From Arthrobacter agilis (GTDB lineage Bacteria > Actinomycetota > Actinomycetes > Actinomycetales > Micrococcaceae): DNA of 64,000 bases. Positions 7,022-19,599 of the stretch are shown piece by piece. A program made the translations under genes and the position numbers. The stretch spans positions 3,100,001 through 3,164,000 of the forward strand of contig NZ_JAUSXO010000001.1 of assembly GCF_030816075.1 (NCBI RefSeq), given 5' to 3'. Numbering within the stretch: position 1 is the stretch's first letter; each line of letters begins with the position of its first letter. Under the pieces are notes generated by a model that worked only from the letters and a program-made list of their open reading frames with translations, had not been told where the DNA came from and ran no database searches.

Positions 7022-7110
7022 CCGTCCTCCCGGTGTCACCCGGAGCTCCTCCCGTCGTCGGGCAGAACTCTCCGGTGGTTGCTCCAGGATAGGAGCATAG
7101 GTGATGCGGG

Positions 7111-16771: not shown

Positions 16772-16831
16772 AGTCAGTCCCGCTCGGTTCCGCTCAGTCC
16801 CGCTCGGCGCCGCTCAGTCTCGCTCAGCGCC
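16772..16831. repeat. Three tandem 20-bp repeats at the end of the small gene
   Basis: Units 16772-16791, 16792-16811 and 16812-16831 share GCTCAGTCCCGCTCGGCGCC with few changes. The last unit covers the stop codon of the 63-residue gene. It may be a slippage product that could alter the 3' end of that gene or its mRNA structure. Confidence 0.65.
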
Positions 16832-17015
16832 AGAGGCTGTCCGCCCACACGGCGTCCCGCAGGTAGTCCCGCGCCGGCCCGACCTCCCAGAGCTGGCCCT
16901 GCGACTCCAGCACGCCGTCGTTCTGCATGGACTCGATGTCCTCCGACGAGCAGCCGAGGGCCTCGGAGAGGTCCGCCTCGTCGAGGGCGAGCACGACAGT
17001 ATTCCTTGCGTTCAT
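16824..17015 (-). CDS. 63-residue small protein, possible MerR/terminase-like HTH
   Basis: The frame starts at ATG 17015 with GAAGGA upstream and codes 63 residues. The pattern LSEALGCSSEDIESMQNDGVLE...QLWEVGPARDYLRD resembles the small HTH of MerR-like or phage terminase (Nu1-type) proteins: a helix-turn-helix followed by a short wing and a YLR helix. This is a weak structural guess, not a recognised family. It is acidic (many Asp/Glu) and has one Cys. It lies 61 bp after the LanB-C-like gene on the same strand and is the last gene of the RiPP-like unit. Alternatives are a RiPP-related accessory peptide or an unrelated small protein. Confidence 0.65.
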   Translation of the reverse strand: MNARNTVVLALDEADLSEALGCSSEDIESMQNDGVLESQGQLWEVGPARDYLRDAVWADSLWR

Positions 17016-17076
17016 GATGCGTCCTTCGCTCTAAGGGGTCTGACAGGGCCGTCCTACAGGGGATCCGGGGCACTCG

Positions 17077-18027
17077 TCATGCGGTGGGCCCGGGCTTCCA
17101 GGTCCGCGCGTACAGCCCCAGTGCCGCCTCTTCCCGGGCCACGAATCCGAGCCGGTTGAGGGCCATGTGCGCCTGGTACACGGTGAGGTGCTGCGCGCTG
17201 CGGCTGACGCGGACCTTGTCCGCGCGGTAGAGGTAGGTGTCGAGGGCACGGAACCAGCGGCGTCGCCAGTTCTGCACGGCGGATTCCGAGGCGGTGGCCG
17301 CCATCAGGGCATGGAACCCGGTCGCCTTGGAGGCGACCTGCGCCGTCATCGCCTCACGGACGCCCGCGGCGCGCGGGCCGACGTCGACCGTGCAGGTGCG
17401 CAGGTGGCTGTCCCAGTAGAAGTCCCAGGAGAGCCGGCGGCGGTCCGGCCACACCGCGGACCGGGGACCGCGCATCATGCTCTGGGCCGCGTCGAACAGC
17501 ACGAGGGAGCCGAGCGCGGAGCGGCTCTGCATGCGGGGGAAGCGCTGGTTGGCCCAGATGGCCAGCTCGGAGCTGAGTTCGAAGACCTCCTCGGCGAGAT
17601 GGAGTCCCTCCACGCCGCCGTACTTCACGAGGTTGGCCTCCAACTGGGGATCGGCCGGCTCCTGGCCGCCGGAATAGTAGGTGTTGCTGGCCGGAGCAGT
17701 GATCTGCTGGCGCACGGCGAGCAGGGGCAGCGTGCGGGCGCTACGGGCCTGGAGGACCCGCTGGAAGGCCCGGAGGCGTTCGAGGACCCGGGGGTGGGCA
17801 TGGATGCTCAGCCTGATCTGGCTGACGACCCCCGTCGATGCGTCCTCGCACCGGTTGAAGTACCAGCGTTTGGCGCCGAGCGCCTGGGCCTGCGCCACCA
17901 GCGGGGTGACCAGCTCTTCGATGATGCCGTCCGCTACATCGAAGCCACCCGTCGAGAGGGAGAGATGCCACCACTGAGTGCTGACGACCGTTCGTGAGGC
18001 GGTTCGAACGGCAGTCACCTGGCTCAT
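17077..18027 (-). CDS. Stand-alone lantibiotic-dehydratase C-terminal / thiopeptide-type biosynthesis domain protein
   Basis: A 316-residue protein with AAGGAGAG five bases before the ATG. The N-terminal part has TQWWHLSLS (residues 17-25), then VADGIIEELVTPLVAQAQALG and RWYFNRCEDAS (54-64) followed by IRLSIHA. This matches the layout of the SpaB_C/thiopeptide-type bacteriocin biosynthesis domain, in which a Trp-led strand is followed by WFFxRY-D and a hydrophobic-R-L strand. In LanB dehydratases this domain performs glutamate elimination; relatives catalyse pyridine formation in thiopeptides. Here no glutamylation (N-terminal LanB) partner is present, so the reaction is unknown. It lies directly downstream of a 46-residue secreted-type peptide gene with twin WDWPK repeats, its presumed substrate. 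The family call comes from motif reading only. Confidence 0.68.
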   Translation of the reverse strand: MSQVTAVRTASRTVVSTQWWHLSLSTGGFDVADGIIEELVTPLVAQAQALGAKRWYFNRCEDASTGVVSQIRLSIHAHPRVLERLRAFQRVLQARSARTLPLLAVRQQITAPASNTYYSGGQEPADPQLEANLVKYGGVEGLHLAEEVFELSSELAIWANQRFPRMQSRSALGSLVLFDAAQSMMRGPRSAVWPDRRRLSWDFYWDSHLRTCTVDVGPRAAGVREAMTAQVASKATGFHALMAATASESAVQNWRRRWFRALDTYLYRADKVRVSRSAQHLTVYQAHMALNRLGFVAREEAALGLYARTWKPGPTA

Positions 18028-18078
18028 GGCTCTCTCCTTCAGGGTCTGTGATCACCCCCGCTGGGGCGGGCTCTGGGT

Positions 18079-18108
18079 GGGGATCCCGGGCTCTAGTCCG
18101 GGATCTCC
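18079..18108 (-). terminator. Intercistronic hairpin between peptide and LanB-C-like genes
   Basis: GATCCCGG (18082-18089) pairs perfectly with CCGGGATC (18098-18105); a G-T and two G-C pairs extend the stem to 18079-18108, with an 8-base loop. It sits 5 bp after the peptide stop and 52 bp before the next start, without a T tract. Partial terminators or processing hairpins at this position are typical of RiPP operons, where the precursor is made in excess. Confidence 0.6.
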
Positions 18109-18112
18109 CTGT

Positions 18113-18253
18113 TTACTTCGGCCAGTCCCAGCTGCCTGCCGTGATCTGGCCCTTGGGCCAGTCCCAACTTGCCGCGCTGATCGACTGCCCTGCCGGCGCC
18201 ACAGCTCCCACCACGATCAACAGGCCCGCAGTTACGCTGAATACCTTCTTCAT
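18113..18253 (-). CDS. 46-residue secreted-type precursor peptide with duplicated WDWPK repeat
   Basis: The frame starts at ATG 18253 with AGGAAGGA seven bases upstream and ends with TAA at 18113. The N-terminus MKKVFSVTAGLLIVVGAVAP is a standard signal peptide: two Lys, a hydrophobic core, then AGQSISA with a possible signal-peptidase AxA-like site. The C-terminal half is two ten-residue repeats, ISAASWDWPK and ITAGSWDWPK (8 of 10 identical), linked by GQ. The mature part would be about 19-22 residues with four Trp, two Asp, two Pro and two Lys. It is followed by a hairpin and a LanB-C-like gene and faces a divergent regulator, so a modified peptide (RiPP) or peptide pheromone is likely. I do not recognise this peptide. 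Confidence 0.8.
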   Translation of the reverse strand: MKKVFSVTAGLLIVVGAVAPAGQSISAASWDWPKGQITAGSWDWPK

Positions 18254-18630
18254 GGCAATCCTTCCTGACCCGTTCTCCGGGAGGTCGAGCTGTTTCCGCA
18301 CTGCCGTCCGCAGTGCCCGGGCTTCCCGAGGGTCGCCCCTCTCGGGCTTCCCTGTGGACCGGCTCACCCAGAATCTCTGGCGGCGGGAGGCAGTGTCCAG
18401 CCGTACGGGTGGCCGGTTGTGGACATGGCGCAAACAGGACTCGGACACACCGCGCGTGCGGCTGATACGCTGCTTCGCAGTCGGGAAATCCGCGGAATCG
18501 CGGGCCTGGACGGCGCCTTCGGTCTCGCGAAATTGCCAGCCACCCTGATCTGTCATTAACTGGACATGTCATGTTTTTCGCTTCGTGAAGGATGCCGCTA
18601 GCGACCCGGTGGCCCGGACAAGGACTGCTC
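18254..18630. promoter_or_regulatory. 377-bp divergent regulatory region of the RiPP-like locus
   Basis: No convincing gene lies here. Pointing at the regulator, TTGCCA (18533-18538) and TTAACT (18556-18561) are 17 bp apart, a good promoter. TGTCAT occurs twice, 16 bp apart (18551-18556 and 18567-18572), and GACATGTC (18563-18570) is an 8-bp palindrome overlapping the promoter end; these are possible regulator sites. In the long leader of the peptide gene, CCCGAG (18325-18330) and CTCGGG (18341-18346) form a hairpin. Confidence 0.5.
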
Positions 18631-19599
18631 ATGCTGGATGCGACATCGCTCGAGGTGTACCGGTACGCCGTCGGGCATCCCGGCTGGACGCGCGCCGAGG
18701 CCTCGGAAGCCCTCGGTCTGACCCTGCGCCGCATCGAGGCCGCGATCGCCGAGCTCTCCGACCGCCGGCTGCTCAGCGCCGAGGCAGGCAAGCCCGAGGG
18801 CCTCGTCGCGGTGTCACCCGACGTCGCCCTCGCGGACCTCGTCGACGCGGACGAACGCTCCCTGCAGGACCTCAAGGCGCGCATCAGCAGCCGGCGACGC
18901 GAGCTCTCCAGCCTCCTGCCGACCTTCCTCGAAGCGCGCAAGAGCGTCCTCGCCAGCACCTCCGTGGAGACGCTCGAGGACCCCCACCTCATCCACCGGG
19001 TGCTCATCGACTACGGGCGCGATGTCACGGAGAAGGTGTACATCGCCCAGCCCGGCCAGGGTTCGACGGCGGACGTGCACGAGGAGAGCGTGCGCAAGGA
19101 CCTCGAACTGCTGGAGAACGGTGTGCGACGGCGGACCCTGTACGACACGAGCCTGCGCGACCACGTGCCGACCCGCAGGGCCGTCGAGGCGATCGTGGCC
19201 GGTGGCGGCGAGTTCGGCGTCCTGCCCTTCATCCCCCTGCGCATGCTGATCTTCGACGAGAAACTCGCGCTCGTGGGGCGGCAGCTCACGCGCGACGACA
19301 AGGCCGCCCTGGTCATCAGGGACTCCAGCCTGATCAACATCTTCACCCTCCTGTTCGACGTCGCCTGGGAGATCAGCGAGTCCTTCCTCGCCCCCGAGCG
19401 GGTCGAATCCCCCCTGAGCAGCCTGCAGCGCTCCATCATCCAGGGACTCGCCAACGGCCTGTCCGACGAGTCGATCGCCCGTCGCCTGGACATCAACGTC
19501 AGGACCTGCCGGCGGCACATCGCGTGGATGCTGGACACCCTGCGGGCGGAGAGCCGCTTCCAGGCCGCCCTGAAGGCGCGGGAGGCGGGCTGGGTCTAG
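18631..19599 (+). CDS. TrmB-like/LuxR-type HTH transcriptional regulator
   Basis: A 322-residue protein from ATG 18631, with AAGGA seven bases upstream. Residues about 1-55 are a TrmB-like winged helix (VYRYAVGHPGWTRAEASEALGLTLRRIEAAIAEL). Residues about 60-95 form a coiled segment. The middle carries a PLD-like or effector-binding region (RRAVEAIVAGGGEFGVLPFIPLRMLIFDEKLALV). The C-terminal 60 residues are a LuxR/GerE-type HTH (LQRSIIQGLANGLSDESIARRLDINVRTCRRHIAWMLDTL). Two DNA-binding motifs in one chain are characteristic of this actinobacterial family. It is divergent from the twin-WDWPK peptide and probably controls it, perhaps in response to the mature peptide or a membrane-stress cue. 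The start is inferred from spacing; an upstream ATG at 18592 lacks a spaced ribosome-binding site. Confidence 0.85.
   Translation: MLDATSLEVYRYAVGHPGWTRAEASEALGLTLRRIEAAIAELSDRRLLSAEAGKPEGLVAVSPDVALADLVDADERSLQDLKARISSRRRELSSLLPTFLEARKSVLASTSVETLEDPHLIHRVLIDYGRDVTEKVYIAQPGQGSTADVHEESVRKDLELLENGVRRRTLYDTSLRDHVPTRRAVEAIVAGGGEFGVLPFIPLRMLIFDEKLALVGRQLTRDDKAALVIRDSSLINIFTLLFDVAWEISESFLAPERVESPLSSLQRSIIQGLANGLSDESIARRLDINVRTCRRHIAWMLDTLRAESRFQAALKAREAGWV

Follow-up and report, generated by a model that had tools for sequence, protein, structure and literature searches.

We identified a small divergent gene cluster in a 64,000-nucleotide stretch of the Arthrobacter agilis genome (contig NZ_JAUSXO010000001.1, positions 3,100,001 to 3,164,000; hereafter, the window) that couples a tryptophan-rich peptide, a stand-alone LanB C-terminal-domain enzyme and a TrmB/LuxR-type regulator. 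Judging from gene content and conservation, we slightly favor the interpretation that this locus is a pheromone-type peptide-signal system with a TrmB/LuxR-type receptor. The first gene on the minus strand encodes a 46-amino-acid Sec-like precursor, the candidate signal, with two copies of SWDWPK (18113..18253); after an 85-nt gap, it is followed by the gene for a 316-amino-acid LanB C-terminal-domain (Lant_dehydr_C) protein (17077..18027) and by an open reading frame (ORF) of 63 amino acids (16824..17015), whereas the regulator gene is divergent, on the plus strand (18592..19599, probable start at 18631). Here and below, ‘Sec-like’ denotes a home-made residue rule (an early Lys or Arg, then a hydrophobic stretch), not the output of a signal-peptide predictor. 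The locus, first described in the initial annotation, proved to be real and conserved, and lies in a 3.86-Mb single-contig genome, in which the enzyme is 86-94% identical to those of named Arthrobacter records, placing the genome close to the Arthrobacter agilis group.

Among 197 genomes of the family, the enzyme gene was found in 40 and a strong match to the regulator in 39, so that 39 genomes carry both, one carries the enzyme alone and 157 carry neither. A peptide with a [WY]xW motif is encoded upstream of the enzyme at 47 of the 48 distinct operon loci, compared with 0 of 19 orphan enzyme paralogues and 58 of 2500 shuffled sequences, and at operon loci the enzyme gene comes directly after the peptide gene. 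The initial annotation had made its proposal dependent on the co-occurrence of the peptide and enzyme genes in related genomes and on the similarity of the 316-residue protein to LanB-C; the former is borne out by these counts and the latter by a match to PF14028 (E 2.3e-14).

The peptide gene is plastic around its W-x-W core. Sec-like precursors contain two copies of WDWPK in the window and in L001-L011, L015 and L077, a single copy in L012, L079, L080 and L081, and three copies in L073; WEWPK occurs three times in L013, L014, L086 and L087, and WDWPQ occurs four times in L075 and six times in L074, where the array consists of 5.7 copies of a 33-bp unit. Other Sec-like precursors end with WDW (L053-L055, L057, L058, L090-L094), WDWKN (L088) or WGWPQKT (L089). 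The leaderless forms are MKSWDWF (L076, L078), MMKSWDWF (L082), MKKATAPVSIKSWEWF (L069, L084, L095), MEKATGSTVSIKSWEWF (L083, L096), MTTKVWDWI (L085), MKMASKVWDWI (L097) and MTSKVWDWL (L098); furthermore, MEATFSQILRSGGIYDWPTVA is encoded in L016, from Haematomicrobium, and MTASAARRIWAWPESWPILGRK in L072. In the genus that we denote g32, the leaderless ORFs span 7-17 residues and have Shine-Dalgarno-like sequences. Peptide stop and enzyme start are 76-148 nt apart across all forms, the short ones being much like the long ones in this respect. At 15 agilis-type loci, the codons for D and K are invariant and that for P changes only silently; apart from two formats, either Asp or Glu stands between the Trp codons. 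The peptide core has no invariant Ser/Thr or Cys, and eight WDW or Trp-tail peptides searched against NCBIfam gave no match at the curated cut-off. SWDWPK and ASWDWPKGQITAGSWDWPK are candidate ligands of the regulator.

The regulator consists of an N-terminal winged helix, a PLD-like middle domain and a C-terminal GerE helix-turn-helix. It matches the GerE and TrmB-like folds, with TrmBL2 as the top Foldseek matches, the Pfam match to TrmB being weak by itself; no tetratricopeptide repeat (TPR) match was found in it. Relatives are present in 155 of 394 genomes of the class at E <= 1e-25, and 69 of their loci (L156-L224), representing part of the matches listed with several per genome, were read. 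Of the 68 testable related regulators, 15 have next to them a divergent Sec-like ORF whose final 12 residues include Trp, compared with 1 of 140 other genes (2 of 141 long ORFs before removal of the window’s own regulator) and 20 of 1360 block shuffles; the Fisher value of 2e-7 for the first comparison is overstated because the loci are not independent. The sole non-self match of the real-gene control is a gene at position 1171 (plus strand) of the LanB-containing locus L104, with a divergent Sec-like ORF ending with GGFGDEWI. Under a stricter rule, a divergent Sec-like ORF was found at 13 of the 69 loci, and 12 of these ORFs have Trp among their final 14 residues, against 9 of 1380 shuffles; the match at L221 looks like chance. 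The tails include DSSWG, DPIWG, DNIWM, DSLWD and DLPWTK, and several of these ORFs hold two or three motif copies (GDSGWG x2, GVIGWD x2, DTGWG x3, GDMGWQ x2), which counts in favor of a signal. A sensor signature, P154-G155-D170, which was picked post hoc and scored on a hand-made list of 20 Trp-paired regulators, is present in 16 of these 20, in 17 of the 49 others and in 13 of 17 Arthrobacter-type regulators (Fisher 0.001). A wider scan of the loci of the 17 signature-positive regulators without a found peptide yielded convincing Trp-tail ORFs at L159 and L165 and a doubtful one at L156. The more distant TrmB/LuxR-type regulators L147, L148 and L149 (E near 1e-31 to 1e-32) adjoin ORFs that by eye resemble secreted proteases.

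A similar peptide and regulator also occur in a full azole-type cluster for a ribosomally synthesized and post-translationally modified peptide (RiPP). In the relative G022 (locus L151), one end of such a cluster has an ABC gene preceded by the gene for a Sec-like peptide ending with LPLLDWDWK; the cluster comprises YcaO, two nitroreductase-like proteins (one just under the Pfam cut-off), LanB-N, LanB-C, ABC and MFS genes and a regulator, and is presumably goadsporin- or thiopeptide-like. The regulator and LanB-C are 36% and 33% identical to the respective window proteins. What L151 has in addition to the window locus is YcaO, the nitroreductase-like proteins, LanB-N, the ABC and MFS genes and two precursors rich in Ser and Cys (at 7064 and 7295), the evident LanB substrates; no YcaO, LanB-N or Ser/Cys precursor gene was seen among the genes read around the window locus. 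Because the WDW peptide and a related regulator reside in a cluster with precursors of its own, the peptide resembles a signal more than a LanB substrate. The content of L151, together with the finding that only 2 of the 40 enzyme genomes have a LanB-N match, also makes the Arthrobacter operon look like a reduced azole-RiPP cluster that retained the peptide, the regulator and the C domain. Another azole-RiPP cluster, L152, also encodes a pair of Ser/Cys-rich precursors; near a response-regulator-like gene, it has a Sec-like peptide of a different kind, which ends with LLPDDFLCKLFRSC.

The initial annotation had left two options: a lone C domain acting on the peptide, or a secreted signal read by the regulator. 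The second appears to be better supported, by the L151 cluster with its own precursors and by the Trp-tail ORFs beside related regulators; for the first, the linkage is tight and the enzyme retains the old catalytic residues only in part. In the signaling scheme that we infer, the first gene would produce a small precursor with a short oligopeptide built around W-[DE]-W as its useful part. In the window species, the Sec pathway would export the precursor and cleavage would release one or two copies of the peptide, and the signal would act on or re-enter the cytoplasm, through uptake, to be bound by the divergent regulator. The latter would act on the two divergent promoters by way of a pair of boxes that share a CATGTCC core. 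In the agilis group, both boxes are conserved between the divergent genes, and g32 has similar ones among the loci listed. These candidate operator or promoter elements, both on the minus strand, are ACATGTCCAGTTAATGACA on the regulator side (18551..18569) and CCATGTCC..GGACAC, recognized when agilis-group loci were aligned, on the peptide side (18393..18428). LanB-C would be a leftover of an azole-RiPP cluster using the same kind of signal, now most likely binding, tailoring or sequestering the WDW peptide, which is the weakest step of the scheme.

Several observations weigh against such a signaling system. The leaderless forms could not take the Sec route, and a pure signal leaves the tight linkage of LanB-C unexplained. 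By the last-12 rule, 53 of the 68 related regulators have no divergent Sec-like Trp-tail ORF, and the loci compared are not independent, with several per genome and close relatives among them. In L151, ~12.5 kb separate the peptide gene from the regulator gene, and the two are not divergent. Finally, no regulon outside the locus is visible by operator search, because the regulator-side box has only one exact site genome-wide; one further site with 2 mismatches (G000:C1:1305932-1305950), located between genes for an XRE-like regulator and an SDR-like protein, is possibly a chance match. More broadly, we tentatively propose, at somewhat under even confidence, that TrmB/LuxR regulators and Sec-like or leaderless Trp-motif peptides form a widespread, unnamed class of actinobacterial signaling systems, and that in relatives of Arthrobacter the signal gene has shrunk to as few as seven codons and become linked to a LanB C-domain that has been repurposed to handle the signal.

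The alternative that survives best is a minimal RiPP pathway, in which LanB-C would modify the WDW peptide or the product of the 63-amino-acid ORF, the modified form would be the end product and the regulator would merely control the cluster; we consider this rather unlikely. The position of the enzyme gene directly behind the peptide gene is consistent with such a pathway, as is the 63-amino-acid ORF, which is best conserved among relatives at its Trp- and Asp-containing tail (YLRDAAWAD..W; RDAVWADSLWR in the window). The start of this ORF, ADLSEALG, by eye resembles the leaders of azole-RiPP precursors (EDLSEGLE and DLGDALS in L151 and L152), and the ORF may descend from such a precursor; it was not seen in L016, L070 and L072. 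The enzyme itself speaks on both sides. The LanB-C family fold spans the whole protein, as in stand-alone thiopeptide relatives, and PF14028 is its sole Pfam match. As the initial annotation had suspected, an N-terminal partner is missing: the glutamylation domain (Lant_dehydr_N, PF04738) has no match in the enzyme or elsewhere in the genome, whereas the same search was positive in 4 of 197 family genomes, including two of the 40 with the enzyme (G005 and G022), although a very diverged LanB-N could escape it, G022 itself having scored under the cut-off. Of the NisB residues R786, R826 and H961, for which roles in elimination are described in the accessible parts of the literature (PMC4979651, PMC4341554), alignment alone maps the first to residue 74, the second to K135 and the third to H287. 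The window enzyme has S74, K135 and H287; thus, the His is kept and both Arg are lost, residue 74 being S, H, N, K or R in other operon enzymes and still others in the family. The His, which favors a RiPP pathway, occurs in 47 of the 50 operon enzymes (exceptions, L072, L088 and L089) versus 3 of 19 orphans. Residues W193, W205, R255, W258 and Y265 are retained in all 19 orphans and H208 in 17 of 19; since several of this set also occur in the LanB-cluster proteins L070 and L071, they represent constraints that outlasted H287 rather than new inventions. A coupling between His287 and the peptide Asp, hinted at by L089 (Q287, WGW) and L072 (R287, WAW), would have supported modification but broke down on L088, which combines Q287 with WDW. 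This failed coupling, the replacement of both Arg, the missing LanB-N partner, the separate precursors of the G022 LanB-C in a cluster that nonetheless has a WDW peptide, and the lack of a constant Ser/Thr or Cys in the peptide core argue against a RiPP pathway. Glutamate elimination by the LanB-C protein is unlikely, and our guess is that it binds the Trp-rich peptide or performs a new reaction on it.

It is improbable that the product is a secreted antimicrobial, surface-active or host-directed peptide, with the regulator sensing something else. Sec-like leaders in many species and the relatives of the regulator that adjoin other kinds of genes agree with this possibility, but the leaderless 7-17-residue forms of g32 and the single short cores would be odd for a toxin, and no immunity or dedicated export gene was seen at the window locus. 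A translated attenuator, akin to a trp leader, in which charged tRNA-Trp controls the downstream gene, would fit very short Trp-containing ORFs followed by a conserved, partly structured gap, but is highly improbable given the Asp or Glu between the Trp codons in all but two formats, the Sec-like leaders and up to six copies, a downstream gene outside tryptophan metabolism, and a hairpin with no T run behind it.

The gap between the peptide and enzyme genes (18028..18112, minus strand) contains a hairpin (18082-18105) and the conserved element CCCGCCCCAGCGGGGGTGATCACA (18047-18070), whose relatives end in GTRACCA. A conserved intercistronic hairpin was rejected: the RNAalifold consensus of 37 intercistronic sequences is weak (-4.1 kcal/mol, one 4-bp stem) and the short element folds no better than shuffles, so that only sequence conservation is claimed for the gap. 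Nor is a known RNA family indicated, Rfam giving two sub-threshold chance matches to human lncRNA families and, at the gathering threshold, nothing in L151 and L016.

The genes flanking the locus are unremarkable (FMN reductase, TetR and GAF-ANTAR regulators, aminotransferases, alanine dehydrogenase and 2-oxoacid dehydrogenase genes). The window’s genome has no further copy of the enzyme or of the 63-amino-acid ORF, and PLSDB holds no plasmid copy of the enzyme; a YcaO-family gene lies at G000:C1:1505990-1507096, ~1.6 Mb from the window. In L146 (G080:C6:369000-382500), the regulator is ~9 kb off the peptide-enzyme operon, with sugar-metabolism-like genes in between, and G146 shows the same spacing. 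The orphan LanB-C paralogues of g32 (L047-L052, L056, L059, L061-L068; as many as six matches in a single genome, G171) have no adjoining regulator or W-x-W peptide and mostly lack H287. An Arthrobacter-type locus on L010, a contig titled Vibrio cholerae 35D, is probably foreign DNA within that assembly.

Compared with known systems, the enzyme shares its Pfam family and whole-protein fold with LanB elimination domains (NisB, MibB, MadB) and with stand-alone TbtD, PbtD and TsrE/TsrL. It has the Lant_dehydr_C domain of class I lanthipeptide dehydratases, but neither their glutamylation domain nor the complete R786/R826/H961 set, and the stand-alone fold of pyridine synthases (TbtD/PbtD) or TsrE-like proteins, but no azole-RiPP cluster at the locus. 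Peptide aminoacyl-tRNA ligases (PEARLs) carry a Lant_dehydr_N-type domain, which is absent from this PF14028-only protein. The regulator has the fold and domain order of TrmB-type regulators with a LuxR helix-turn-helix, differing in its pairing with a W-x-W peptide. As in RRNPP quorum sensing, a small propeptide gene adjoins that of a cytoplasmic regulator; RRNPP receptors, however, have TPRs, which are not found here. According to the available text of three reports (PMC10518010, PMC8092268, PMC13361665), the Rgg/SHP and leaderless communication peptide (LCP/RopB) systems of Firmicutes likewise place a very short peptide gene next to a cytoplasmic regulator, and Rgg systems also govern a small RiPP in Streptococcus mutans. 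There, the receptor is of the Rgg/RopB kind rather than TrmB/LuxR-type, and the present candidate system differs further in having Trp-motif repeats and Sec-like precursors as well. Pairing of a W-x-W peptide with a TrmB/LuxR regulator was not found in titles and the beginnings of abstracts of the open-access literature, subscription papers and preprints being outside the search; the accessible part of a study of 16 luxR genes in Arthrobacter UMCV2 does not mention TrmB (PMC9659744).

Actinomycetota signals are typically enzyme-made small molecules, as summarized in the available portion of PMC10075063, and, as far as the accessible text of a 2024 study goes, no strong candidates for signaling-peptide genes were found in the genome of one Streptomyces isolate (PMC11019849). 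Similar peptide-regulator pairs in other actinobacteria hint that a peptide language of these bacteria has been overlooked, and widen the finding to a candidate class in which peptides pair with TrmB/LuxR regulators. Should the signal interpretation fail, there would still be a LanB C-domain without a partner next to a conserved W-x-W peptide. If it holds, such gene pairs would be recognizable by a Trp-tail, often repeated, next to a TrmB/LuxR regulator, short synthetic peptides would be ready for testing, possible switches for silent RiPP clusters would be at hand, and the locus would offer a model for the reuse of RiPP-enzyme domains.

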